Part shown: positions 1-43,055 of the stretch, in pieces
Layout: the number at the start of each line of letters is the position of its first letter
Position numbering within the stretch: the first letter of the stretch is position 1
From: a virus
Direction: 5' to 3' (one strand)
DNA length: 64,000 nucleotides
IMG/VR virus record: IMGVR_UViG_3300049927_000163
Span: 1 to 64,000 of that record
The notes under the pieces: model-generated
Databases searched by the model: none
What the model was told of the DNA's origin: nothing
Seen by the model: only the letters and a program-made list of their open reading frames with translations
Translations under genes and position numbers: made by a program

Positions 1-169
1 TACTGACAAGAACTTGCCCGCTTGTGCCTAAACCTGACACGTTTTGCAATGCACTTGTGCTAGTAGTTCCGCCAGTTAAAACAGAATATGCCGTAAAGCT
101 TGCATCACCAGTACCACCTTGTGGAACAGTAACAGGATTACTTGTGTTCGTTGCATTATTTGTTGCCAT
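1..169 (-). CDS. Fibre-associated beta-rich protein, N-terminal part (cut by window edge)
   Basis: This is the first 56 codons of a gene that runs off the left edge. It starts MATNNATN and continues with SNPVTVPQGGTGDASFTAYS. The segment is almost identical in DNA to positions 38514-38672, where the complete 208-residue paralogue lies, so the missing part is probably the same domain. The N-terminal VPQGGTG segment is typical of phage fibre and collar appendages. Its ATG is 7 bases downstream of the HNH gene stop. The function as a fibre-associated appendage is inferred from position and composition. Confidence 0.75.
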   Translation of the reverse strand, partial: MATNNATNTSNPVTVPQGGTGDASFTAYSVLTGGTTSTSALQNVSGLGTSGQVLVS

Positions 170-175
170 AAAGCC

Positions 176-631
176 TTAAACCACTGTTATGTTTCTTTCT
201 TCTTCCGCATGACATTTCGGGCAAAGTGTTATCAGATTATCAAGATCATAAGCTTTTGAACTGTCAATCCTTAATGGTATAATGTGATGAATATGCAACT
301 TTTTATTGTATGCCAGACATTTCTTGCATTTATATCCATCACGTTCCAAAACTTTTAGTCTACATTTTTTGGCTTTTGTGCTCTTGTAGTTTTTTCTTAC
401 CTCTAGAGCTCTTAAATCACCTTTACCATCTATATAATTATGAGGTTTATGACCCTTAAGAAATCCATTATCAGGTCGGTGACCTTTTTTATATCTACCG
501 GTATTTTCTTTTCCTGTAGCAGGTTGAAATCTCAGATTATGGCATTTCTTACATCTATGTCTACGCCAATTTTCAATTTTATGAAATTCTGTTATTTCTT
601 TTTCTATATCACAATCAATACATTTCCTCAT
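176..631 (-). CDS. HNH homing-type endonuclease inserted beside the fibre gene
   Basis: A 151-residue HNH nuclease. Residues 4-34 carry paired cysteines (CIDC and CKKC) that should bind zinc. Residues 97-145 form the HNH core: CKKC, then LHIHHIIPL with the catalytic histidines, then DNLITLCPKCH. Such free-standing enzymes cut phage DNA and spread by homing. It is absent from the equivalent junction of module 2 (38672-38679), where the two fibre genes abut. Its last codons (RNITVV) match, base for base, the 3' end of the module 2 fibre gene, so the element seems to have used that end as its own C-terminus. The start has a GAGG Shine-Dalgarno sequence inside a hairpin. Confidence 0.9.
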   Translation of the reverse strand: MRKCIDCDIEKEITEFHKIENWRRHRCKKCHNLRFQPATGKENTGRYKKGHRPDNGFLKGHKPHNYIDGKGDLRALEVRKNYKSTKAKKCRLKVLERDGYKCKKCLAYNKKLHIHHIIPLRIDSSKAYDLDNLITLCPKCHAEEERNITVV

Positions 632-655
632 GATAACCTCATTTTGTTATCATGA
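628..655 (-). promoter_or_regulatory. Hairpin enclosing the ribosome-binding site and start codon of the HNH gene
   Basis: A perfect 10-bp inverted repeat (arms TCATGATAAC and GTTATCATGA) with an 8-base loop lies at the HNH start. The ATG is in the 3' arm and the GAGG Shine-Dalgarno sequence spans the end of the loop. In an RNA this fold would hide the start codon. Structures of this kind restrain homing endonuclease translation in T-even phages; applying that here is inference. Confidence 0.65.
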
Positions 656-686
656 TTTTACTTAACAGTAATATTACCTTCCACAA

Positions 687-1982
687 CTAAACTACGGTCA
701 CATTTCCAATCGATCCATACACCTGCCAGACTGAAGATGAACCACCAGTTACGCATACTAATTGCAAGGAATCTCTTATGGCAGTAGATGCAAGTGATCC
801 ACCTGTTCCGGCTGTTGTAGAGCTAGTGCCGAAGAAGATTTGTTGCGAAGCATTCTGAGCTATCTTCCAGCCTAGAGCAATGTTAATACCAGTCACATTG
901 AATAAGTCACCAGCGGTAGATGATGCAGGTAAAGTAAGAGTTAGCAATGTGCCCTTATTACAGATATATCCATGACTTGCAACAACAGATTGATCCGCAG
1001 TAATCACCGACCAAGTTAGGCCACCTGCTGCTGGAGCAGCACTTGTCCAATTCGTTCCGTCACTTGTCATGACATTGCCGGATGTTGAAGGCACTGCATA
1101 GGTTTCTGTTGAAGCAACCCAATTCGTTCCATCGGACACGATAATTTTACGTGTTGTCGCGCTCGCATTGGGGAACGTTGGGGTCGAAGCAACCCAATTC
1201 GTTCCGTCCGCCACTAAGACCTTTGATGTGCCTGTGGCGACTGAGGGGTATGTTGCGGTCGAAAAACTTGGCGCTGCTGAGGCATTGGATTGTAATACGT
1301 TACCTGTTGTGCCTGGCCCTGCTAGAATAGAAGGCACTCCAGTATTGCTAGTAACAAGCATACCGTTATTTGCAGTTGCTAGGCCACCTACTACGCTTGT
1401 TGCAGAGGAGTATAGTATCTGACTGACAGTAGTAGTAGCCGGATATGTTGCAGTTGTAGCTACCCAGTTAGTTCCGTCAGCACGAAGGATTGTTCCAGTA
1501 CCTGTTGCTATTGCTGGATAGGTTGCTGTTGAATAAGCTGGATCTGCTGAAGCACCACCTGACTGGAGCACTTGTCCTGCTGAACCGGCTGCTGTTGCAA
1601 CTATGGCACTTGTAGCTTGACCAATGACTACGCCATGGTTAGTGAGGGTAGTTGCAGAAGGAGGTCCAGAGACGTTGATTGTAGCAGTTCCTCCAAGAGA
1701 TACTGGAGAACCTGACACTGATACGTTAGTGCCGTTAGAAAGCGTAATTTGGCCAGATCCTGGAAGGGCTCCAGCTGGGATTGCTCCAAAAGAGGGATCT
1801 CCACCTGTGTTTCCATTTAGAACTTGATTAGTTAAACCTGCTGTAAGAGAAGTAATGCCATTACCTGTTGAACCAATAAGAACAGCATGATTAGTAACGG
1901 GCAATCCGGAAAAAGTGGAAATACCGTTAAAACGCATTATGCCGGCAGTAGTAAGATTTAAGCTATTGGCTGGTATTCCCAT
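687..1982 (-). CDS. Tail fibre/appendage protein, copy 1
   Basis: A 431-residue protein of low-complexity, Ser/Thr/Ala/Gly-rich beta repeats (recurring DGTNWVA, GQVLQSGGASADP and ATYP). It ends in a compact C-terminal domain (about residues 325-431, from DQSVVASHGYIC to VYGSIGNVTVV). The same C-terminal fold recurs in the neighbouring 162-residue protein, which suggests trimeric fibre segments. It is over 90 percent identical by eye to the protein at 38679-39977. Repeats of this type occur in phage fibres and receptor-binding proteins. The start GIPANSLNLTT has an AAGGAC Shine-Dalgarno sequence. The last codons are synonymous with, but different from, those of copy 2 because of the adjoining HNH insertion. 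Confidence 0.8.
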   Translation of the reverse strand: MGIPANSLNLTTAGIMRFNGISTFSGLPVTNHAVLIGSTGNGITSLTAGLTNQVLNGNTGGDPSFGAIPAGALPGSGQITLSNGTNVSVSGSPVSLGGTATINVSGPPSATTLTNHGVVIGQATSAIVATAAGSAGQVLQSGGASADPAYSTATYPAIATGTGTILRADGTNWVATTATYPATTTVSQILYSSATSVVGGLATANNGMLVTSNTGVPSILAGPGTTGNVLQSNASAAPSFSTATYPSVATGTSKVLVADGTNWVASTPTFPNASATTRKIIVSDGTNWVASTETYAVPSTSGNVMTSDGTNWTSAAPAAGGLTWSVITADQSVVASHGYICNKGTLLTLTLPASSTAGDLFNVTGINIALGWKIAQNASQQIFFGTSSTTAGTGGSLASTAIRDSLQLVCVTGGSSSVWQVYGSIGNVTVV

Positions 1983-1997
1983 ATTTACGTAAGTCCT

Positions 1998-2486
1998 TTA
2001 CATTAAGAGCCATGTAGCATCTGCTTCGAGGGCCCACCAAGTTGATGAAGCTTCTCGGTAAACTAATATTAAATTATCTCCAAGGGCTGTACTTGTGGCT
2101 GTGCCACCAACCGAAGAAGATTCAGCACCGATCGCAATAAACTGTGTCGCATCTGCTTGAACTATTACAGAACCTGCTGTATCACAGATAATGCTCACTG
2201 TCTGGCCTTGGGTTGCACCACCTGGCAAAGTCACAGTTAAAGCCGCAGTACAAAAGTACCCTTCATTGACTGTTGCTGAAAAATCGGCTGCTTCATCGGT
2301 CCAGTTCATGATTCCGGATGTAGCTACTATGGTAACAGTATTTCCAGAACCAGAAGTACTAACTGCACCAGAACCAAAAATATTCAAGGTGCTTAATGAT
2401 GAAACCGCAGTACCTGAATTCGTGACAAAGTTGATTGGTACGTTTACCGGCACATTTCCTGTTACTGCTATTGAATAGCCTGACAT
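1998..2486 (-). CDS. Fibre-associated protein, 162 residues, copy 1
   Basis: A beta-rich protein that begins MSGYSIAVTGNVPVNVPINF. Residues 62-162 resemble the C-terminal domain of the preceding large fibre: a Tyr-Phe-Cys segment, a TLPGG loop, the VQAD...FIAIG stretch, and a terminal Trp-rich end. It is probably a fibre segment or fibre-tip subunit of the virion. The near-identical copy in module 2 is at 39990-40478. It lies 16 bases from the next fibre gene, in the same transcription unit. Confidence 0.7.
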   Translation of the reverse strand: MSGYSIAVTGNVPVNVPINFVTNSGTAVSSLSTLNIFGSGAVSTSGSGNTVTIVATSGIMNWTDEAADFSATVNEGYFCTAALTVTLPGGATQGQTVSIICDTAGSVIVQADATQFIAIGAESSSVGGTATSTALGDNLILVYREASSTWWALEADATWLLM

Positions 2487-2489
2487 GAA

Positions 2490-2837
2490 TCAACTCGCGT
2501 AGAAGGTTGATAAGTACACTGATCCCGTAGATGCAACGCCTCTAGCATAAAACTGCGTCTTTGCTACCGTCGCAAGGATAGCATTGGACACAGCGTTAGC
2601 TGTTTCATCCAAGGCAAAACCTGCTCCAGGCAAAAGAACAACATGGTCATCTACTCCATTCCAAGAAATAAATACGTTTACGCCAGTGTTGTTGACGAAG
2701 AGGAGTACTCTTGATGGATTGGTAATTGGCGATGCCACAAGACTTGCATTTAGAAAAGGCATGTAGGAGCCTGTGAATGAAGCACTATTTATGCTTCTCA
2801 TTGGCTCTGGTAGTAATCGATCGCTGTAATCAGGCAT
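2490..2837 (-). CDS. Virion-associated small beta protein, copy 1
   Basis: A 115-residue protein with a conserved N-terminus (LLPEP, then INSASF), a SPITNPSR segment and a C-terminus GSVYLSTFYAS. It has no catalytic motif. It is present in the same place in module 2 (40482-40829), where both termini and the SPITNPSR segment are conserved while the middle diverges. Its constant place between the two large fibres suggests a fibre connector or decoration subunit. A terminator separates it from the upstream 729-residue fibre gene. Confidence 0.65.
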   Translation of the reverse strand: MPDYSDRLLPEPMRSINSASFTGSYMPFLNASLVASPITNPSRVLLFVNNTGVNVFISWNGVDDHVVLLPGAGFALDETANAVSNAILATVAKTQFYARGVASTGSVYLSTFYAS

Positions 2838-2849
2838 ATAATTTCCCTT

Positions 2850-2871
2850 AAAAAAGGGGGATTTCTCCCCC
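2850..2871 (-). terminator. Rho-independent terminator after the large fibre gene, copy 1
   Basis: Read on the minus strand, the hairpin GGGGGAGAAATCCCCC is followed by six T. It lies just downstream of the 729-residue fibre gene. An identical element is found at 40842-40863 after the module 2 fibre gene. Confidence 0.8.
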
Positions 2872-2876
2872 TATTA

Positions 2877-5066
2877 TTAATTTTGTCTTACGATGAAATA
2901 AGCATATGTAGATACATCGCCCGTTTGCGTCGAACCAGGCGTGCCCACAATCAGTGATGTGACAGTAAAGCTTGTCGCATTGATGATTGTGTATGATAAC
3001 TCACCAAGTGTTGTAGATGCCGCTACACCAATTCTCTGTAGGAATATCCTATCAGCAGTTGCAATGTTTGTATTAGCGATTGTCTGAGTACCAGCAGTTA
3101 GAACACCTGTACCGATAAAGTCAGTTACTGCACCGCCATTCAATTGGAGCTGAGTAGCTACGTTACCTAGGATTAGGTTACCGTTTACAGTTGCACCACC
3201 TGAACCTGTGTTCAAGACAAGGGCTGTTGCGCCTGTTATGTTACCAATTGTGATTGTTCTAGCCGCAGCACCTGTACCAATGTTAATTGCTTGAGCAACA
3301 GCATTGTTACCAACGTTAATCGCAGCTGCTGAGCTATTAAGGCTTAGAGCACCAACTGCATCAACTGTTACAGCCGCACCACCTGATACTGCAATAGCAC
3401 CTGATAGAGCATTACCAATTGTTACTGTTCCTGTGGATGTACCTGAGTTAATCGCTGTGTTAGAGTTTTGGCTAGCGTTGATACTTGCTACGCCTAAGAT
3501 ATTCACTGTTGTTGCGCCATCAGCGTTACCAACTGTCATCGTCTTAGTACCAGTACCAGTCAGAACGTTCAGGGCCATTGTACCAGCAGCTCTATTGCCA
3601 GTAGCAATTGCTGTGGTATGTGTACCTGAAGTTACAGCACCTGTAGCGATGTTAGTAAGCACTTGGCCTAGGGTTACACCACCTGAGTTAACATTGACTG
3701 TTTTTACACTGTTTGCGTTGGTTGTAGCACCGCCTGTACCTAAGTTCAAAGTATCAGTTACAGCAGCTACAACAATTGTTCCACCGGAAACTGTAGTTGT
3801 ACGCGAAGCAGCAGGAGCAATATTGCAAAGATCTGCAGTAGTTACACGAGTATTATTACCGATTGCAAGGACACCCGCACCCGCAGTACCAATACCTGAC
3901 ATGATGTTTACTGTTGTATTACCAACAGACGCACCGTTTGAAATACTGACCGTTTGAGTAGAAGTGTTTATGCCATTGCCAATTAGGATGGTATTTCCAT
4001 CGATACCATTACCGATATTAATAGCTTTTGTACCATTGCCAGTAGCTGCGTTCAGAGTGATAGTTCCAGAAGCGGCATTGCCTGATAGAATGTTGACAGT
4101 TGAATCACCAGCAGAGGCACCAGCTGCAATATTGACTACTTGCGCACCAGTATTGACAGCGTTACCAATGTTGATAGTCTGACCAGAAGCTGAAGTACTA
4201 CGACCTAGAGTGATTGTTCCAGTTCCGACAGCGCCACCTAGAGTAATGGTACCAGAGGTCATCGCATTACCGATTGTCACTGAACCTGTAGTTTGTGTGT
4301 TGCCTATTACGATGGTGTTGGCTCCAGAGCCTCCAACTGTGATTACACGGGCAGTTGTACCGATTGCCAGGTTAACTGCGGCTGCATCATTATCGGAACC
4401 AAGGCCTAAAGTTGTGCCAGCAGTTTTGATATTGGCTGATGCATTGAATGTCGCAAGACCTGAAAAAGTTGTAGCTCCTGCAATTGAAAGCGCGTCATCT
4501 AAAACAACTGCGCCTGTCACATCTAAAGTGCCAGGAAGATCAAGACTATTTGACCAGATTGGATCAGCAGCAGATTGTCCGATTAAAACCTGGTTAGTTG
4601 AACCTACAGCAGTTGGAGTCACTACACCAGTTCCAGAACCAAGCATGATACCATGGTCTGTGATAGTTGTAAGACCGGTTCCCCCTTCAGAAACATCAAG
4701 TGCGGTGGAGAAAACAAGAGTTGTAGCAGTAAGAGTAGTGAATGTACCAGCACCTGGAGTAGTCGTTCCAATATCGCCCGGAGCGGCCATAATTGAAGGC
4801 AGGTTTGATGGTACTAGAGCAAGATTAGTAGCAACTTGTGCAGCGGCTTCGCCATTGGTAGCAATTTCGATCAATCCAGGAACAGTAGTAGAGGCTAAAA
4901 CTCCCCCAGAGAGCGCCACTTGGCTAAGACCATAAGGTGTTACAGCTATTTCTCTATAGTTAGCTGGATTTGGTGTAACTGTTTCTGCGGCAGTTGCAAA
5001 ACGGGTAATTCCAACGGTTTGTTCACTCGCTGGAACTGCACCAAGATAGGAAAGTGGTGAAGACAT
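2877..5066 (-). CDS. Large repetitive tail fibre/tailspike-like protein, copy 1
   Basis: A 729-residue protein. The first 130 residues are a likely virion-anchoring region (SPLSYLG, then ATNGEAAA, then TTPGAGTFTTL). Residues about 230-650 are a long array of short imperfect repeats of the type GTITLG, INIGNG and TVNILSG, spaced as expected for a beta-helix or beta-prism stack. The last 80 residues (from GVLTAGTQTIANT to YFIVRQN) form a compact tip that is almost invariant between the two modules. It is likely the main receptor-binding fibre. The repeats give long open frames on the opposite strand, which I treat as shadows. The start overlaps the promoter region of the plus-strand island. Confidence 0.8.
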   Translation of the reverse strand: MSSPLSYLGAVPASEQTVGITRFATAAETVTPNPANYREIAVTPYGLSQVALSGGVLASTTVPGLIEIATNGEAAAQVATNLALVPSNLPSIMAAPGDIGTTTPGAGTFTTLTATTLVFSTALDVSEGGTGLTTITDHGIMLGSGTGVVTPTAVGSTNQVLIGQSAADPIWSNSLDLPGTLDVTGAVVLDDALSIAGATTFSGLATFNASANIKTAGTTLGLGSDNDAAAVNLAIGTTARVITVGGSGANTIVIGNTQTTGSVTIGNAMTSGTITLGGAVGTGTITLGRSTSASGQTINIGNAVNTGAQVVNIAAGASAGDSTVNILSGNAASGTITLNAATGNGTKAINIGNGIDGNTILIGNGINTSTQTVSISNGASVGNTTVNIMSGIGTAGAGVLAIGNNTRVTTADLCNIAPAASRTTTVSGGTIVVAAVTDTLNLGTGGATTNANSVKTVNVNSGGVTLGQVLTNIATGAVTSGTHTTAIATGNRAAGTMALNVLTGTGTKTMTVGNADGATTVNILGVASINASQNSNTAINSGTSTGTVTIGNALSGAIAVSGGAAVTVDAVGALSLNSSAAAINVGNNAVAQAINIGTGAAARTITIGNITGATALVLNTGSGGATVNGNLILGNVATQLQLNGGAVTDFIGTGVLTAGTQTIANTNIATADRIFLQRIGVAASTTLGELSYTIINATSFTVTSLIVGTPGSTQTGDVSTYAYFIVRQN

Positions 5067-21199: not shown

Positions 21200-21848
21200 C
21201 CTATATAAAAGAGAAGATGTCACACTAGATCCTGTAACTGGAAAGAATTTATTTAGCAAATCAAAGAAGCATAAGTTAGTCATTGGTGACTATGCCCTTG
21301 AGGAATTTGGTCTTATTAACTCGTGGCAGGTTTTTGAGAAAATCGATGGGACCAATATCCGCATTACTTTTAAAAAAGAAGGAATTCTTGAAGATGTTAG
21401 GTTTGATGGACGCACCAATAATGCACAAATACCTACCCATTTGATTAAATACCTACAAGACAAGTTCACTATTGAGAAGTTGTCAAAATATTTTGAGGAA
21501 GATGGCACATATATTCTATTTGGCGAGGGATTTGGCCCAAAAATACAAGATGGTGGCAATTATCGTTTTGATGTCTCATTCATCCTTTTTGATGTGTTTA
21601 TTTCTCCCTGGTGGCTAAATTATGAAAGTCGTCTTCAAATAGCAGATTATCTAAGCATTGAACATGTACCTTTTCTTGGAGAAATGAATGAAAGTGAGAT
21701 ATTGCATTACATCAGATCGAAGCCAAAAAGCACTATTTCAGTCAATAAAGATTATGTCATGGAAGGGGTAGTTTGTAGATCAGAACCTTTGCTTTGTCTG
21801 AGGAATGGGGATCCATTGAAGTTTAAACTTAAATGTGTGGATTTATGA
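21177..21848 (+). CDS. RNA ligase of the Rnl2-like family
   Basis: A 223-residue nucleotidyltransferase. Motif I is EKIDGTNIR near residue 57, where the lysine would carry AMP. A later strand holds DVRFDGRTNN; motif III-like YILFGEGFG is near residue 120; motif IV-like MEGVVCRS is near residue 198; and motif V-like LKFKLK is near the C-terminus. These are the ordered motifs of T4 Rnl2-type RNA ligases, which seal broken RNA, often tRNA cleaved by host defence. A tRNA gene lies 170 bases downstream in the same island, which fits an RNA-repair role. It has a good Shine-Dalgarno sequence (GAGG). Confidence 0.85.
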   Translation: MEYPKINSLYKREDVTLDPVTGKNLFSKSKKHKLVIGDYALEEFGLINSWQVFEKIDGTNIRITFKKEGILEDVRFDGRTNNAQIPTHLIKYLQDKFTIEKLSKYFEEDGTYILFGEGFGPKIQDGGNYRFDVSFILFDVFISPWWLNYESRLQIADYLSIEHVPFLGEMNESEILHYIRSKPKSTISVNKDYVMEGVVCRSEPLLCLRNGDPLKFKLKCVDL

Positions 21849-22024
21849 AACGTATTTTTACAGTTCGAAGGTACCAAATTGGGTTTTTTGGATCTTTAAT
21901 AGTACATGATGTTAAGCTTAAATTATCTAAGAGACTTTATAAAAAAGTAATTCGTAATGTTGGACGAGTAAAAATAAGATGTAATAAGAATTATTCTTAC
22001 CCAAGATGTATTCTGGCCACATAG
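21845..22024 (+). CDS. Small basic protein before the tRNA
   Basis: A 59-residue, Arg/Lys/Tyr-rich protein (MKRIFTVRRYQIGFFG...). It starts with a 4-base overlap with the RNA ligase stop and ends 10 bases inside the tRNA gene. Its charge suggests RNA or DNA binding. It could be only a fortuitous frame. Confidence 0.4.
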   Translation: MKRIFTVRRYQIGFFGSLIVHDVKLKLSKRLYKKVIRNVGRVKIRCNKNYSYPRCILAT

Positions 22025-22087
22025 CTCATGCGGTAGAGCACTCGTCTGTTAAATGAGCGGTCGTTGGTTCGAATCCAACTGTGGCCT
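22015..22087 (+). tRNA. tRNA-Asn (GTT)
   Basis: A full cloverleaf is visible. The acceptor stem is GGCCACA/TGTGGCC and the D arm is GCTC...GAGC. The anticodon stem CTCGT/ATGAG closes the 7-base loop CTGTTAA with anticodon GTT. The T arm is GTTGG-TTCGAAT-CCAAC. CCA is not encoded. Phage-borne tRNAs can offset codon demand or replace tRNAs destroyed by the host. Confidence 0.93.
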
Positions 22088-22154
22088 AAACTTTTGACAC
22101 AGGTAGACAAAATTTTTGGATAGATTTTGTGACAGATATTCAGAAGGTAAAGTA

Positions 22155-22379
22155 ATGAAATGGATTAATGTAAAAGAGCGACTTCCTAACAAAGAAGAAT
22201 GCCTATGTTGGGTGATGAATACCAATCGTGGGGGTTATGGTTTTCTTGCATTTTACTATCATGATGGACAGTATTTCCAATTACAAGGTGGAAGTAGTGA
22301 AAAGAGTCCTGCGCTTCTAGTTACTCATTGGTATCCTTTACCATTGCCAATATGGGGATTTAAAGATGAAATGGATTGA
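22155..22379 (+). CDS. DUF551 protein, array copy 1
   Basis: A 74-residue protein with the DUF551 outline: MKWINVKERLP at the start, a beta-rich middle and the closing motif THWYPLPLP. These small proteins are common in phages and their function is not known. It is the first of four in a row. Its last codons (DEMD, stop) contain the start of the next copy (ATGAAATGGATT). Confidence 0.8.
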   Translation: MKWINVKERLPNKEECLCWVMNTNRGGYGFLAFYYHDGQYFQLQGGSSEKSPALLVTHWYPLPLPIWGFKDEMD

Positions 22380-22632
22380 TAGATTAGAACAATTACCAGA
22401 ACTGAATCAAAAATGCTTATTTTATGATCCAACTCTTGGTGATATAGGTAGTGGCATTTATGTATCTTCTACCTGTGTTGATGAAATTCCTAGAACATGT
22501 GGATGTACTGGTATTGATTTCTACGAATGGACATATTGGATGCCTTTGCCAGAGTCTCCTTTAGAAGAATATGAAACAAAATGGGGTAGGAAATATCGTG
22601 AAGTAAAGGATAATTCTAATGAAATGGATTAA
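22366..22632 (+). CDS. DUF551 protein, array copy 2
   Basis: An 88-residue protein that starts MKWIDRLEQLP and has the motif TYWMPLPESP near residue 63. The 25-residue tail beyond it is longer than in the other copies and ends NEMD. It overlaps both neighbours by 14 bases through the shared ATGAAATGGATT sequence. Confidence 0.78.
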   Translation: MKWIDRLEQLPELNQKCLFYDPTLGDIGSGIYVSSTCVDEIPRTCGCTGIDFYEWTYWMPLPESPLEEYETKWGRKYREVKDNSNEMD

Positions 22633-22852
22633 TGTTAAAGATAAGTTGCCTACAACAGGTCCTTGTGGAAGCGAAGAAGTTTTAGTTTATCGATCTAGTG
22701 TATTAGATAAATTTCATGTATGTATATATTTCGGTAAAGATCCTTGGTTTAAATGTGGTCATCATTGGAATCTAAAACATGGCCACAATAAAGCTGCTGA
22801 AGATGTTACTCACTGGATGCCTTTACCGGAGCCTCCTAATGAAATGGATTAA
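22619..22852 (+). CDS. DUF551 protein, array copy 3
   Basis: A 77-residue protein: MKWINVKDKLPTTGPC at the start and THWMPLPEPPNEMD at the end. It is the closest of the four to the usual DUF551 pattern, in which a W-x-x-V-x-x-x-L-P start is followed by an HWMPLP end. The terminal codons again encode the next start. Confidence 0.8.
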   Translation: MKWINVKDKLPTTGPCGSEEVLVYRSSVLDKFHVCIYFGKDPWFKCGHHWNLKHGHNKAAEDVTHWMPLPEPPNEMD

Positions 22853-23078
22853 ATATAATGAACGGAAACCCGAGAAATCCGGAAGATATCTAATTATTTT
22901 TAAGTGTGAATCAGGTTTTCACAACTGTTTAGCAGTTAATTATGCTCACCCATGCTGTGATATAAATATTGCATATTTTTCCTTACCAGATTATTGGGAA
23001 TTTGCTACATTCAGGCCTATAGCTATAGAATATACTATAATCCATTGGATGCCATTACCTGAGGTGCCAAATGAGTAA
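22839..23078 (+). CDS. DUF551 protein, array copy 4
   Basis: A 79-residue protein that starts MKWIKYNERKPEKSGRYL and ends HWMPLPEVPNE. The start at 22839 is set by the conserved overlap with copy 3. It lacks the final MD codons and so closes the array; the next gene begins inside its last codons. Confidence 0.78.
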   Translation: MKWIKYNERKPEKSGRYLIIFKCESGFHNCLAVNYAHPCCDINIAYFSLPDYWEFATFRPIAIEYTIIHWMPLPEVPNE

Positions 23079-23232
23079 CAGAGGCAAGAAATCAAGTAAA
23101 CGAACCAATCCCAAGATAAAAAGTGCCGCTCGGGCATTGTATCATCAGTATCTATGGCACATACGACGAATGGCGAGTCAGCGGAAGACAATACGTGAGG
23201 TTAACGTGGGTACTGCCCTATACCTGGACTAG
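23071..23232 (+). CDS. Small basic protein overlapping a tRNA-like sequence
   Basis: A 53-residue protein, strongly basic at the N-terminus (MSNRGKKSSKRTNPKIK) and ending REVNVGTALYLD. It starts within the last codons of the DUF551 array. Its last two thirds lie inside a sequence that can form a tRNA-like acceptor and T arm. The function is unknown. Confidence 0.45.
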   Translation: MSNRGKKSSKRTNPKIKSAARALYHQYLWHIRRMASQRKTIREVNVGTALYLD

Positions 23233-38045: not shown

Positions 38046-38672
38046 CTAGAGTGTTACTATGTAATAGGATGCTTGTATCGTAAAAGTGTTATTGTTTGCG
38101 GCGTTACCAGATATTTCTGTTGCACTAGTGTTTCGAACGTTTACATTTATATTGTCAAACAAGGTTGCTGCACCTAAAGGATTTGAATCCGGACCAAGAT
38201 AAGCATATTTATTCGCATTGCTCGTAATCATAGCATTAACGATTAACCCACCATAAGTAATAGTCGAACCACGGAATATATCAATGGTTTGCGAAGCGCC
38301 TGCCACAAAGACATTAGTCCCACCATAATTAAATTTTGCAGCAACATTCAAAATAGATATCACCTTTCCAGCACCTGGAGCGGCAATCAATTCTATAGGT
38401 GTAGCATGTAATAATTTAACCTGAGCAGAAGTTAAAGTTAATTGAGCTGTCTGTATAGTCAATACAGAAGCTGTTTGCCAAGTTGGTAATGAAGAAGTAC
38501 CAGTACTGACAAGAACTTGCCCGCTTGTGCCTAAACCTGACACGTTTTGCAATGCACTTGTGCTAGTAGTTCCGCCAGTTAAAACAGAATATGCCGTAAA
38601 GCTTGCATCACCAGTACCACCTTGTGGAACTGTGACAGGATTACTCATGTTTGTTGCATTATTTGTCGCCAT
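38046..38672 (-). CDS. Fibre-associated beta protein, paralogue 1
   Basis: A 208-residue protein, the full-length counterpart of the gene cut at the left edge. It reads MATNNATNMSNPVTVPQGGT, a linker to residue 75, and the shared C-terminal domain (LTSAQVKLLHATPIELIAAP, then YGGTNVFVAGASQ, ISGNAANNN). It abuts the large fibre gene, six bases away, with no HNH gene between, unlike module 1. Confidence 0.68.
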   Translation of the reverse strand: MATNNATNMSNPVTVPQGGTGDASFTAYSVLTGGTTSTSALQNVSGLGTSGQVLVSTGTSSLPTWQTASVLTIQTAQLTLTSAQVKLLHATPIELIAAPGAGKVISILNVAAKFNYGGTNVFVAGASQTIDIFRGSTITYGGLIVNAMITSNANKYAYLGPDSNPLGAATLFDNINVNVRNTSATEISGNAANNNTFTIQASYYIVTL

Positions 38673-38678
38673 AAAGCC

Positions 38679-39977
38679 TTAAACCACTGTTATGTTTCCG
38701 ACGCTACCATAAACCTGCCAGACTGAAGATGAACCACCAGTTACGCATACTAGTTGCAAGGAATCTCTTATGGCAGTAGATGCAAGAGATCCACCTGTTC
38801 CAGCAGTTGTAGAGCTAGTACCGAAGAAGATTTGTTGTGATGCATTTTGGGAAATCTTCCACCCGAGGGCAATGTTAATACCAGTCACGTTGAATAAGTC
38901 ACCAGCTGTAGAAGAAGCAGGCAAAGTGAGCGTTAGCAATGTGCCCTTATTACAGATATATCCATGACTTGCAACAACTGATTGATCTGCAGTAATCACT
39001 GACCAAGTTAGGCCACCTGCTGCTGGAGCAGAGCTTACCCAGTTCGTTCCGTCACTCGTCATGACATTGCCAGATGTTGAAGGCACTGCATAAGTTTCTG
39101 TTGAAGCCACCCAATTCGTTCCATCGGCCACGATAATTTTACGTATGGTTGCGCTCGCATTGGGGAACGTTGGCGTCGAAGCCACCCAATTCGTACCGTC
39201 CGCCACTAAGACCTTAGATGTGCCTGTAGCGACTGAGGGGTATGTTGCGGTCGAAAAACTTGGCGCTGCTGAGGCATTGGATTGTAGTACGTTACCTGTT
39301 GTACCAGGACCTGCAAGGATAGCTGGTATACCTGTGTTACCTGTTGTAAGTAGACCGTTATTTCCTGTAGCGAGGCCTGAAATTACACTTGTTGCAGAAG
39401 AGTATAGTATCTGATTGACAGTAGTAGTTGCAGGATAGGTTGCAGTTGTTGCCACCCAGTTTGTTCCATCTGCTCGAAGGATTGTTCCGGTACCTGTAGC
39501 GACTGAGGGGTATGTTGCGGTCGAATAGGTAGGATCGGCAGAAGCACCACCGGATTGTAAGACTTGGCCTGTGCTACCTGCTGCCGTTGCAACTACTGCA
39601 CTTGTAGCTTGACCAATGACTACGCCATGGTTCGTTAATGTAGTAGCTGAAGGAGGTCCAGAAACGTTGATTGTAGCAGTTCCTCCAAGAGATACTGGAG
39701 AACCTGACACTGATACATTAGTGCCATTAGAAAGCGTAATTTGGCCAGATCCTGGAAGGGCGCCAGCTGGTATTGCACCAAAAGATGGATCTCCTCCGGT
39801 ATTGCCATTAAGGACTTGATTTGTTAGTCCTGCTGTAAGAGAAGTAATAGCATTAGTTGTTGATCCTACAAGAACTGCATGATTTGTTACAGGAAGACCT
39901 GAGAATGTAGAAACTCCATCAAATCTCATAATCCCAGGAGTTGTCAAATTTAAACTATTTGCCGGTGTGCCTACCAT
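38679..39977 (-). CDS. Tail fibre/appendage protein, copy 2
   Basis: A 432-residue protein, over 90 percent identical by eye to copy 1 (687-1982), with the same repeats (DGTNWVAS, GQVLQSGGASADP) and the same C-terminal domain ending VYGSVGNITVV. One extra residue lies at the N-terminus (MVGTPANSLN). This copy has the undisturbed 3' end, giving the reference for the HNH insertion in module 1. It is probably a trimeric fibre of the virion. Confidence 0.8.
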   Translation of the reverse strand: MVGTPANSLNLTTPGIMRFDGVSTFSGLPVTNHAVLVGSTTNAITSLTAGLTNQVLNGNTGGDPSFGAIPAGALPGSGQITLSNGTNVSVSGSPVSLGGTATINVSGPPSATTLTNHGVVIGQATSAVVATAAGSTGQVLQSGGASADPTYSTATYPSVATGTGTILRADGTNWVATTATYPATTTVNQILYSSATSVISGLATGNNGLLTTGNTGIPAILAGPGTTGNVLQSNASAAPSFSTATYPSVATGTSKVLVADGTNWVASTPTFPNASATIRKIIVADGTNWVASTETYAVPSTSGNVMTSDGTNWVSSAPAAGGLTWSVITADQSVVASHGYICNKGTLLTLTLPASSTAGDLFNVTGINIALGWKISQNASQQIFFGTSSTTAGTGGSLASTAIRDSLQLVCVTGGSSSVWQVYGSVGNITVV

Positions 39978-39989
39978 ATATTCCCCATA

Positions 39990-40478
39990 TTATGCCATTA
40001 TCCATGTTGCATCGGCTTCAAGTGCCCACCATGTAGAAGAAGCTTCTCGGTATACTAAAATTAGATTGTCTCCTAGAGCAGTGCTTGTAGCTGTTCCGCC
40101 TAGTGATGATGATTCTGCGCCTACTGCGATGAACTGTGAAGCGTCTGCTTGAACGATTATTGCACCCGTGGTAGCACATATTATGCTTACTGTTTGTCCC
40201 TGTGTGGCGCCTCCTGGAAGACTTACTGTTAAAGCCCCAGTACAAAAGTAACCTTCGTTGACTATTGCTCCAAAATCAACTGCTTCATCAAACCAATTCA
40301 TGACTCCAGATGTAGCAGTAATGGTAACGGTGTTACCCGAACCGGAAGTACTTACGGCACCTGAACCAAATACATTAATATTATTAGATGCCGATGTCGC
40401 AGTGCCCGAATTCGTGACAAAATTAATTGGAACGTTGCTTGGTACATTTCCACTTACAGCAATTGAATAACCTGACAT
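39990..40478 (-). CDS. Fibre-associated protein, 162 residues, copy 2
   Basis: A counterpart of 1998-2486, the same length. The first 40 residues and the C-terminal domain (IIVQADASQFIAVGAES, then WWALEADATWIMA) are very similar; the middle stretch SASNNINVFG differs. It is probably a fibre segment or tip protein. Confidence 0.7.
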   Translation of the reverse strand: MSGYSIAVSGNVPSNVPINFVTNSGTATSASNNINVFGSGAVSTSGSGNTVTITATSGVMNWFDEAVDFGAIVNEGYFCTGALTVSLPGGATQGQTVSIICATTGAIIVQADASQFIAVGAESSSLGGTATSTALGDNLILVYREASSTWWALEADATWIMA

Positions 40479-40481
40479 AGC

Positions 40482-40829
40482 TTAACTCGCATAGAAGGTT
40501 GACAGATTCACATACCCAGTGGATGCGGTACCTTTGGCATAAAATTGTGTATTTGCCGAGGTAGCCAGACTAGTAGACGAATAAGCGTTTGCTGATTCAT
40601 CTAATGCGTAGCCTGCACCCGCAGCTAAATCAACATGTCCCTTTACGCCATCCCATGAAATAGTCACAATTACGCCACTATTGTTTACTATTAGTAATGA
40701 CCTTGATGGATTTGTAATTGGAGATGCTACGAGATTCTCGTCAAGAAAAGGCTGAAAAGTGCCATCAAAGGACGCACTATTAATTCTTCGTATTGGTTCG
40801 GGCAGTAATTTCTGATGTAAATCAGGCAT
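40482..40829 (-). CDS. Virion-associated small beta protein, copy 2
   Basis: A counterpart of 2490-2837, also 115 residues. Ends are conserved (LLPEPIRRINSASF, STFYAS) and the SPITNPSR segment is kept, while residues 50-80 have changed. Such a pattern suggests a scaffold with one variable face. The terminator behind the large fibre lies just upstream. Confidence 0.65.
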   Translation of the reverse strand: MPDLHQKLLPEPIRRINSASFDGTFQPFLDENLVASPITNPSRSLLIVNNSGVIVTISWDGVKGHVDLAAGAGYALDESANAYSSTSLATSANTQFYAKGTASTGYVNLSTFYAS

Positions 40830-40841
40830 ATAATTTCCCTT

Positions 40842-40863
40842 AAAAAAGGGGGATTTCTCCCCC
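40842..40863 (-). terminator. Rho-independent terminator after the large fibre gene, copy 2
   Basis: Identical to 2850-2871: minus-strand stem GGGGGAGAAATCCCCC with six T. It separates the 728-residue fibre gene from the 115-residue gene. Confidence 0.8.
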
Positions 40864-40868
40864 TATTA

Positions 40869-43055
40869 TTAATTTTGTCTTACAATGAAATAAGCATATG
40901 TTGACACATCGCCTGTCTGTGTTGATCCAGGTGTACCGACAATTAGAGATGTAACAGTAAAGCTAGTAGCATTGATGATTGTGTATGATAACTCACCAAG
41001 TGTTGTAGATGCCGCTACACCAATTCTCTGTAGGAATATCCTATCAGCAGTTGCAATGTTTGTATTAGCGATTGTCTGAGTACCAGCAGTTAGAACACCT
41101 GTTCCAATAAAGTCAGTTACTGCACCGCCATTCAATTGGAGCTGAGTAGCTACATTACCGAGGATCAAGTTACCATTTACTGTGCAACCTCCTGAACCTG
41201 TATTAATTACGGTTGCGGAAGCCCCTGTAATATTGCCGAGGGTCAAGGTTCGCGCTGCGGCCCCTGTACCGATATTTATGGCTTGAGCCACAGCATTGTT
41301 ACCTACGTTGATTGCACCACCTGAACTATTTAAGCTTAATGCACCAACAGCATCTACAGTCACAGCTGCACCTCCAGAAAGTGCAATTGCACCAGAAAGT
41401 GCGTTACCTATGGTCACTGTTCCAGTAGAAGTACCAGAGTTAATCGCTGTGTTAGAGTTTTGGCTAGCATTGATGTTAACAACGCCCAAGAAGTTCATTG
41501 TTGTTGAACCATCCGCATTTCCCGCGTTCAAGGTCTTAGTACCAGTTCCCGTCAATAGGTTAACTGCCATAGTACCAGCAGCTCTGTTGCCAGTAGCAAT
41601 CGCTGTGGTATGTGTACCTGAGGTTACAGCACCTGTAGCGATGTTAGTAAGTACTTGGCCTAGGGTGACACCACCTGAGTTGACATTGACTGTTTTTACG
41701 CTGTTTGCGTTAGTTGTAGCACCGCCAGTACCAAGATTCAAAGTATCAGTTACCGCAGCTACAACAATTGTTCCACCTGAAACAGTGGTTGTTCTTGAAG
41801 CAGCAGGAGCAATGTTGCAGAAATCTGCTGTAGTCACACGAGTATTGTTACCGATTGCAAGGACACCAGCACCAGCAGTACCAATTCCTGACATGATGTT
41901 TACAGTAGTATTTGCAGCAGAAGCACCGTTTGCTATGTTAATCGTTTGAGATGAAGTATTTATCCCATTTCCAATCGCTAGGGTATTACCATCAACCCCA
42001 TTTCCTAGATTTATGGCCTTCGTCCCATTTCCTGTGGCTAGATTTAGGGTGATAGTCCCTGAAGCGGCATTGCCTGAAAGAATGTTTACGGTTGAGTCTC
42101 CAGCAGAGGCGCCAGCTGCAATATTGATTACTTGTGCACCTGTATTGACCGCGTTACCAATGTTGATTGTCTGGCCAGAAGCTGAAGTGCTACGACCAAG
42201 AGTGATAGTGCCTGTTCCTACAGATCCACCTAGAGTAATGGTACCTGTGGTCATTGCGTTACCGATTGTGACTGAACCAGCGGTTTGTGTATTTCCGAGC
42301 ACGATAGTATTAGCTCCAGAGCCTCCAACTGTGATTACACGGGCTGTTGTTCCTATACCTAGGTTAACTGCGCCTGCATCGTTATCAGAACCAAGGCCAA
42401 GTGTTGTACCAGCAGTCTTAACATTGATAGAGCCATTAAATGTTGCAAGGCCTGTTTGAGTTTGGGTACCAACTACTATGAGGTTATCGTCTAGCGTAGT
42501 GACACCTGTTACATCAAGAGTACCAGGAAGATCAACGTTTGATGTCCATGCTGGTGCTGTTGCGCCTGCGTTTACTTGAAGAACTTGACGTGCAGTACCA
42601 AGAGCAAGTTTAGAAAGTGTTGTTGAACCAGAAGCGTATAACGTATCGCCAGTTGTATAAGATGTTTGACCTGTTCCACCGTCTGCCGCAGTAATTGCAG
42701 AAGAAAAAGATATTGTTCCTGAAGCAGTTAGATCTGTAAATGTTGCAGCGGCTGGGGTTGTTCCACCAATTATTCCAGGTGCAGCCATGATAGATGCAAT
42801 ATTAGAAGGCACTAAAGCAAGATTAGTAGCAGCTTTCGCAGCAGCTTCACCATTTGTAGCAATTTCTAAGATACCAGCTTGGCTAGTTGATGCAGCAGGT
42901 GCACCGAAAGTAATTAAACCAGCTACACCCTGTGGTGATACGGCTAGATCGTCTCTAGTTCCTGCAATTGTTTCGGATACAGTTGCGAATTCTACACTAC
43001 CAAATCTGGATGTAGATGCTTTTGGTACGCCTAAATAGGCTAATGGACTTGACAT
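40869..43055 (-). CDS. Large repetitive tail fibre/tailspike-like protein, copy 2
   Basis: A 728-residue protein with the same plan as 2877-5066. The N-terminal anchor differs (MSSPLAYLGVPKASTSRFGS, then GGTGQTSYTTGDTLYASGST). The repeat array (GTITLG, INIGNA, TVNILSG) is shared, and the C-terminal tip is nearly identical (VIVGTPGSTQTG-type end, YFIVRQN). A start 12 codons upstream exists, but ATG 43055 has a clear GGAGAG sequence and aligns with the module 1 start. It is likely the receptor-binding fibre of the second unit. Confidence 0.8.
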   Translation of the reverse strand: MSSPLAYLGVPKASTSRFGSVEFATVSETIAGTRDDLAVSPQGVAGLITFGAPAASTSQAGILEIATNGEAAAKAATNLALVPSNIASIMAAPGIIGGTTPAAATFTDLTASGTISFSSAITAADGGTGQTSYTTGDTLYASGSTTLSKLALGTARQVLQVNAGATAPAWTSNVDLPGTLDVTGVTTLDDNLIVVGTQTQTGLATFNGSINVKTAGTTLGLGSDNDAGAVNLGIGTTARVITVGGSGANTIVLGNTQTAGSVTIGNAMTTGTITLGGSVGTGTITLGRSTSASGQTINIGNAVNTGAQVINIAAGASAGDSTVNILSGNAASGTITLNLATGNGTKAINLGNGVDGNTLAIGNGINTSSQTINIANGASAANTTVNIMSGIGTAGAGVLAIGNNTRVTTADFCNIAPAASRTTTVSGGTIVVAAVTDTLNLGTGGATTNANSVKTVNVNSGGVTLGQVLTNIATGAVTSGTHTTAIATGNRAAGTMAVNLLTGTGTKTLNAGNADGSTTMNFLGVVNINASQNSNTAINSGTSTGTVTIGNALSGAIALSGGAAVTVDAVGALSLNSSGGAINVGNNAVAQAINIGTGAAARTLTLGNITGASATVINTGSGGCTVNGNLILGNVATQLQLNGGAVTDFIGTGVLTAGTQTIANTNIATADRIFLQRIGVAASTTLGELSYTIINATSFTVTSLIVGTPGSTQTGDVSTYAYFIVRQN

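Follow-up and report, generated by a model that had tools for sequence, protein, structure and literature searches.

A probable homing endonuclease gene in the 3′ end of a phage tail-fibre-like gene

The window analysed here is a stretch of 64,000 nucleotides, bases 1-64000 of the 73512-bp IMG/VR virus record IMGVR_UViG_3300049927_000163. Near its start, an HNH endonuclease gene ends in DNA that, in a related phage, forms the end of a tail-fibre-like gene, and the fibre gene beside it is intact and ends in other codons. Judging from the sequence, it is likely that a free-standing homing endonuclease, with the conserved 3′ end of fibre genes as its target, entered here and brought a foreign replacement end with it.

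Homing endonucleases usually spare their targets: they are hidden in introns or inteins, or placed between genes. Here, one appears to have entered the coding end of a gene and to have left a working replacement; if this is true, such HNH elements in effect restore the fibre gene that they break. The biology of homing endonucleases and the displaced-end strategy are already known, and what is new, as far as could be found, is HNH elements of this kind in phage fibre genes. The ends of HNH-bearing and HNH-free relatives are material at hand for testing whether an invaded gene is protected by recoding.

Two phages in one record

A preliminary description of this DNA spoke of two modules of one phage. 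This part has to be given up: the two modules are the fibre regions of related phages, A (~38.5 kb) and B (~35 kb), very probably joined by the assembler at a repeat. Why two phages? Each half of the record (1-38503 and 38504-73512) carries its own major head protein, portal and large terminase; bases 1-127 recur exactly at 38504-38630, where the identity ends; and most relatives of the fibre gene that have long contigs lie on contigs of ~35-42 kb. These points, with the recurrence of the final 119 bases of the record inside 36.7-36.9 kb, support the two-phage reading. The two gene sets are plainly present, and the join itself would be the work of the assembler, the 127-bp repeat being one k-mer length.

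The presence of two phages helps the analysis, because the comparison becomes one between an allele with the HNH gene (A) and an allele without it (B); findings that assume A and B to be modules within a single phage need re-reading. Outside the fibre region, blastn of the A half against the B half also finds inverted stretches that are 97% identical (21832-23148 of the window and about 64500-65775 of the record), and Rfam places a tRNA gene of phage A at 22015-22087 on the plus strand.

The fibre end and its displaced copy

The fibre gene of phage A lies at 687-1982 on the minus strand and encodes 431 aa. It matches no family in Pfam or PHROG, and it is called a "fibre" gene because of its repeats and the genes around it. 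Its HNH-free allele in phage B (38679-39977, minus strand, 432 aa by translation) ends in GNITVV*. The two proteins are 93% identical, with C-termini ...YGSIGNVTVV* in A and ...YGSVGNITVV* (38679-38698) in B.

On the coding (minus) strand, the fibre gene of B runs straight on to the next gene: ...TAT GGT AGC GTC GGA AAC ATA ACA GTG GTT TAA GGCTTT ATG GCG. In A, the fibre gene ends ...TAT GGA TCG ATT GGA AAT GTG ACC GTA GTT TAG and is followed by 55 nt and the HNH gene (176-631, minus strand, 151 aa, PF01844). It is now the HNH gene that ends ...GAA GAA GAA AGA AAC ATA ACA GTG GTT TAA GGCTTT ATG GCA, with the same next gene as in B behind it. This next gene occupies 38046-38672 (minus strand) in B, where it holds the joining repeat; in A, its start (1-169, minus strand, MATNNATN...) is cut by the contig end.

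The window contains exactly two copies of the 20 bp TTAAACCACTGTTATGTTTC, one at 176-195 and the other at 38679-38698, and the chance expectation is 0.01 occurrences, even allowing up to 3 mismatches. The copy at 176-195 (minus strand, GAAACATAACAGTGGTTTAA) is identical to the fibre end of B at 20/20 positions and codes the end of the HNH protein, ...EEERNITVV*, so that the last residues NITVV and the stop are the displaced fibre end. The earlier claim that the RNITVV end of the HNH protein is fibre DNA is thus borne out, and the exact old end followed by the same next gene supports an insertion. A self-BLASTN of the window breaks exactly at the HNH gene: 1-195 aligns with 38504-38698 at 97%, and 688-4462 with 38680-42454 at 82%.

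Could this junction be a false join of two phages, made during assembly? The contig very probably does consist of two phages joined at the 127-bp repeat, and the junction lies <200 bp from the contig end. However, the stretch from the repeat to the junction holds six A-specific bases, the closest of them 31 bp from the junction, so that the junction belongs to A and is no piece of B; the same layout also recurs at locus L123, in another assembly. An artefact of this kind is therefore highly improbable.

The replacement end of phage A (687-716, minus strand, GSIGNVTVV*) has its terminal codons in GGAAATGTGACCGTAGTTTAG. Compared with GGAAACATAACAGTGGTTTAA, 6/21 bases are changed, one of them in the stop codon, and a single residue differs (Val/Ile), as had been described. 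Over the last nine fibre codons, A and B differ at 11/27 nt, against 6/120 nt over the preceding 40 codons (Fisher p = 7e-6). This jump in divergence supports an insertion and suggests that the end is of foreign origin. Set against this, the fibre gene is a mosaic in which 10/424 nine-codon windows diverge between A and B as much as the end does, so that this pair alone is no proof of a foreign end. It also counts against an insertion that an exact-sequence search of IMG/VR for the donor gave no match; in INPHARED, no relative of the fibre domain was found among the known phages.

A possible further, degenerate copy of the fibre end at 658-678 (minus strand, GGTAATATTACTGTTAAGTAA, GNITVK*), which has look-alikes at other loci, was considered as something that an earlier insertion had left behind or as an operator through which the gene represses itself, and dropped: it is not significant as DNA (p = 0.76), and local alignment against shuffled DNA at 17 loci gave a combined p = 0.20. 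Among these 17, a second copy is individually clear only at L206 (p = 0.001), where 3455-3503, between the fibre stop and the HNH start, codes AVGKLGF against AVGNIGL; this copy may be a left-hand target duplication or an operator.

The HNH gene and its start-codon hairpin

The HNH protein matches PF01844 HNH with E = 4e-10 and 40.1 bits, against a curated cut-off of 21.4. Its catalytic-core H, H, N, H and zinc Cys are also present in 11 relatives encoded at fibre ends, and across the family alignment His, Asn, His and four Cys are invariant. The 12 aligned proteins form one loose family (31-52% identity to L115). The nearest relative of the phage A protein is only 37% identical, which counts against an insertion, and NUMOD3 motifs, found in homing endonucleases, occur in several relatives. 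A long C-terminal part is present in L084, L115, L122 and L123 and lacking in the protein of the window.

The NITVV end is confined to the protein of the window and absent from every HNH relative found. Relatives with the same terminal residues away from a fibre gene, which would speak against the origin first proposed for this end, were sought and none was found. In INPHARED, the HNH matches are mostly from Paenibacillus and Staphylococcus phages and cover <=75% of the protein; in the one inspected, Harrison, the HNH gene does not lie beside a fibre gene. The genome collection holds one relative, in a Heyndrickxia contig.

What kind of gene is it? The fibre and HNH genes each have their own start and stop, with no intron or intein around the HNH gene. 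Rfam gives no group I intron match at the gathering score in the window and 8 loci, and the self-splicing intron that would surround an intron-encoded endonuclease of that group is missing here. As expected of a homing endonuclease, the gene is present or absent at one and the same site (A versus B; L057 versus L077 and others; L123 versus L284). The HNH gene of phage A is thus probably a free-standing homing endonuclease gene.

A perfect 10-bp hairpin at 628-655 (minus strand) is predicted to pair the HNH start codon, with z = -5.0 to -5.5 against shuffles. This is not peculiar to phage A: the mean folding z is -3.2 at 17 HNH starts and -0.07 at 150 other gene starts of the same loci (Mann-Whitney p = 1e-9), and a strong predicted hairpin with a paired start codon is found at 8/17 of the former and 4/150 of the latter (Fisher p = 8e-7). 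Since the stems vary in sequence among the loci, the feature is conserved as a structure. Such hairpins control the translation of I-TevI, SegB and MobE of T4 (PMC2988022), and the predicted structure in the window, like theirs, involves the ribosome site or start codon. Together with the NUMOD3 motifs and the absence of an intron, the start-codon hairpins support an insertion.

Fibre ends with and without the HNH gene

The C-terminal domain of the fibre is widespread in viral contigs, with the typical end S-S-x-G-N-x-T-x-x-stop; an alignment of 16 diverse domains proved too variable for use as a search query. The usual neighbour directly after a fibre end is another fibre gene, often starting ATGGCAACNAATAATGC. 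Among 80 distinct fibre ends scanned in public viral contigs, an HNH gene follows 17 and is missing after 63, a ratio that is no frequency because the sample was gathered by searching for these genes. At the 17 ends, the HNH start lies 43-60 nt past the fibre stop, a nearly constant spacing that supports an insertion; at HNH-free ends, 59 of the 62 measurable cases have the next start within -4 to +23 nt. The use of stop codons at HNH-bearing fibre ends does not differ significantly (p = 0.26).

At L123, the fibre and HNH proteins are no more than distant relatives of those of the window, and the order is a fibre gene ending GNWSPA with TGA, then an HNH gene that stops at the TAA of TAAC, then AACTGGACGCCAGCTTAA (NWTPA-stop). 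After this displaced end come GGAGAAATT and ATG GCA AGC ATA AAT (MASINSINN). In L284, an HNH-free relative, the fibre ends GWGNWTPA-stop and is followed by MPSINAINN. Thus, L123 too has an old end behind the HNH gene and an altered end on the fibre gene. Aligning junctions with and without the HNH gene had been suggested at the outset; this pair repeats the layout independently and supports an insertion.

Might the layout have arisen by mosaic recombination? An HNH gene already standing between two fibre genes could have had its 3′ part fused, by a deletion, to the end of the following fibre, with no insertion driven by an endonuclease. Fibre genes of this type do form tandem arrays with similar ends, the HNH protein of the window is without the long C-terminal part of its relatives in L084, L115, L122 and L123, and L129 (2113-4100) has the order fibre-HNH-fibre-HNH, an HNH gene following each of two successive fibre-like genes. 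But fibres A and B are direct counterparts and share the next gene, so that a second fibre gene is unnecessary, and L123 would demand another such deletion ending at the same codons. A deletion in the array is unlikely and less probable than an insertion by the endonuclease.

L057 adds a replaced end of another kind, which also supports an insertion. Where its HNH-free relatives have the fibre end GAITVA, L057 has GVVTYN, and the replacement also takes in the opening bases of the next gene. The proposal that the fibre had been given a recoded, synonymous end therefore stands in part: the end is differently coded in A, and L057 shows that the change is not always synonymous.

Another explanation is that the endonuclease has its cut site at some other place in the fibre array or close to it. 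The gene would then merely have come to rest at the fibre end, the altered end being a co-converted by-product with no role in resistance. Free-standing endonucleases of T4 can cleave at a distance from the gene that encodes them and co-convert the flanks (PMC2988022), and L064 has HNH genes of the same family at another position of the array. The joins, which are indirect evidence for a cut site, argue otherwise: on the right side in the window and L123, and on the left in L057, the join coincides with the Gly codon of the fibre end or directly adjoins it, and this speaks for a break at that point. A cut elsewhere with passive co-conversion is improbable, again below an insertion at the fibre end, and somewhat more so than the deletion.

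The displaced end is retained behind the HNH gene in only 2/17 insertions, which counts against an insertion. The first idea, that the HNH gene had moved into the fibre end and kept the old end as its own C-terminus, is upheld for the window; in L123 the old end is likewise kept, behind the HNH stop, and in the other insertions it is not. In L115, L122, L202, L206 and L057, the HNH frame crosses the ribosome site and the start of the next fibre gene, so that recipient DNA commonly forms the HNH tail; these five loci support an insertion. It seems to hold in general that recipient DNA provides the end of the HNH frame; in the window and L123, this DNA is, or borders, the old fibre end.

Two further loci have peculiarities of their own. 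In L052 (1233-1735), the fibre-end HNH gene is broken into two reading frames, as if the copy were decaying. In L094 (2719-2760), the HNH gene is followed by a fibre gene that has apparently lost its ATG (ATC GCA ACA AAT AAT GCA), and the listed ORF starts later, at TTG.

How the gene may have entered

The steps proposed for the insertion are as follows. The target would be the DNA for S-x-G-N-x-T-V-V-stop, the conserved 3′ end of tail-fibre-like genes; because this protein end is conserved and repeated in each array, its DNA makes a good target. The fibre end would be cut in a recipient resembling phage B, and the repair would copy from the donor a tract made of a foreign fibre end and the HNH gene. 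With the left exchange point ~10 nt before the Gly-Asn codons, the fibre would keep its full length and take the donor's coding of the last residues. With the right join at the old Gly-Asn codons, the displaced end behind the HNH frame would supply the last residues and the stop of the HNH protein. The replacement end may then resist cutting, as is naturally expected, and the hairpin over the start codon would limit HNH translation from fibre transcripts.

What the analysis shows is the layout of the genes and that it recurs, the matching sequences, and a hairpin by prediction; cutting, homing and this direction of transfer are inferred. An insertion would account for a fibre end that is divergent and yet intact, for the displaced end and the tightly fixed position, and likewise for the presence/absence polymorphism and the features of a homing endonuclease. 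Since the targets are tail-fibre-like, probably host-range genes, set in arrays with a shared end, the elements could help to shuffle fibres.

Comparison with known systems

The closest parallel is found in fungal mitochondria, where mobile endonuclease ORFs (mORFs) replace the C-termini of genes: atp6 in Allomyces, atp6, atp9, cox2 and nad3 in Glomus, atp9 in Rhizopus and cox2 in Mortierella (PMC3630166). The inserted C-termini are 64-81% identical in DNA and nearly identical in protein, and the native ones, displaced downstream, are 91-98% identical to an insert-free relative (PMC3630166). As in these cases, the phage endonuclease gene stands at the 3′ end of a gene that an apparently foreign, recoded end completes, with the native end displaced downstream, in both the window and L123. 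Unlike the mORFs, which encode LAGLIDADG or GIY-YIG proteins in mitochondria, the element here is in a phage and encodes an HNH protein, which places it outside that lineage; the replaced stretch is far shorter (~30 bp), and translation of the endonuclease takes in the old end. Biochemical work is reported to have demonstrated that the fungal element is mobile (PMC3630166); for the phage element, mobility is predicted from sequence. By analogy, the HNH element of the window would work like the fungal mORFs and yet be no member of their family.

More tentatively, a widespread class of phage HNH genes may be specialised on tail-fibre 3′ ends, carrying a cut-resistant replacement end and using recipient DNA as C-terminus. 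Such a class would be an independently arisen counterpart of the fungal mORFs and a driver of fibre-array shuffling; this is conceivable, somewhat short of an even chance. In the literature searched, with subscription literature outside its scope, the displaced-end strategy was found described only for fungal mitochondria and not in phages.

Among phages, SegF, SegG and MobE of T4 (PMC2988022) are similar in having no intron or intein, an adjoining conserved gene and flanks expected to be co-converted, and I-TevI, SegB and MobE (PMC2988022) in having a hairpin at the start codon or ribosome site. Unlike the T4 group, the gene here occupies the end of the coding sequence that it presumably targets and leaves that target with a replacement end, and no description of a T4-group case of that kind was found. 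Skunavirus and other phage HNH genes (PMC12724721, PMC10448857) likewise occupy defined positions beside conserved genes, with local sequence differences, and the parts of these two sources consulted describe no duplicated or displaced gene end. Finally, the hidden HNH insertions of ShiLan type in phage methylase genes (PMC11855218) lie inside the gene and are read through in frame, whereas here the gene stops before the insert and has a substitute 3′ end. The two have in common that the HNH gene sits in coding sequence without an intron or intein and that a stop codon marks the border of the insert, in ShiLan as TAAC (PMC11855218), a border seen in L123 too.
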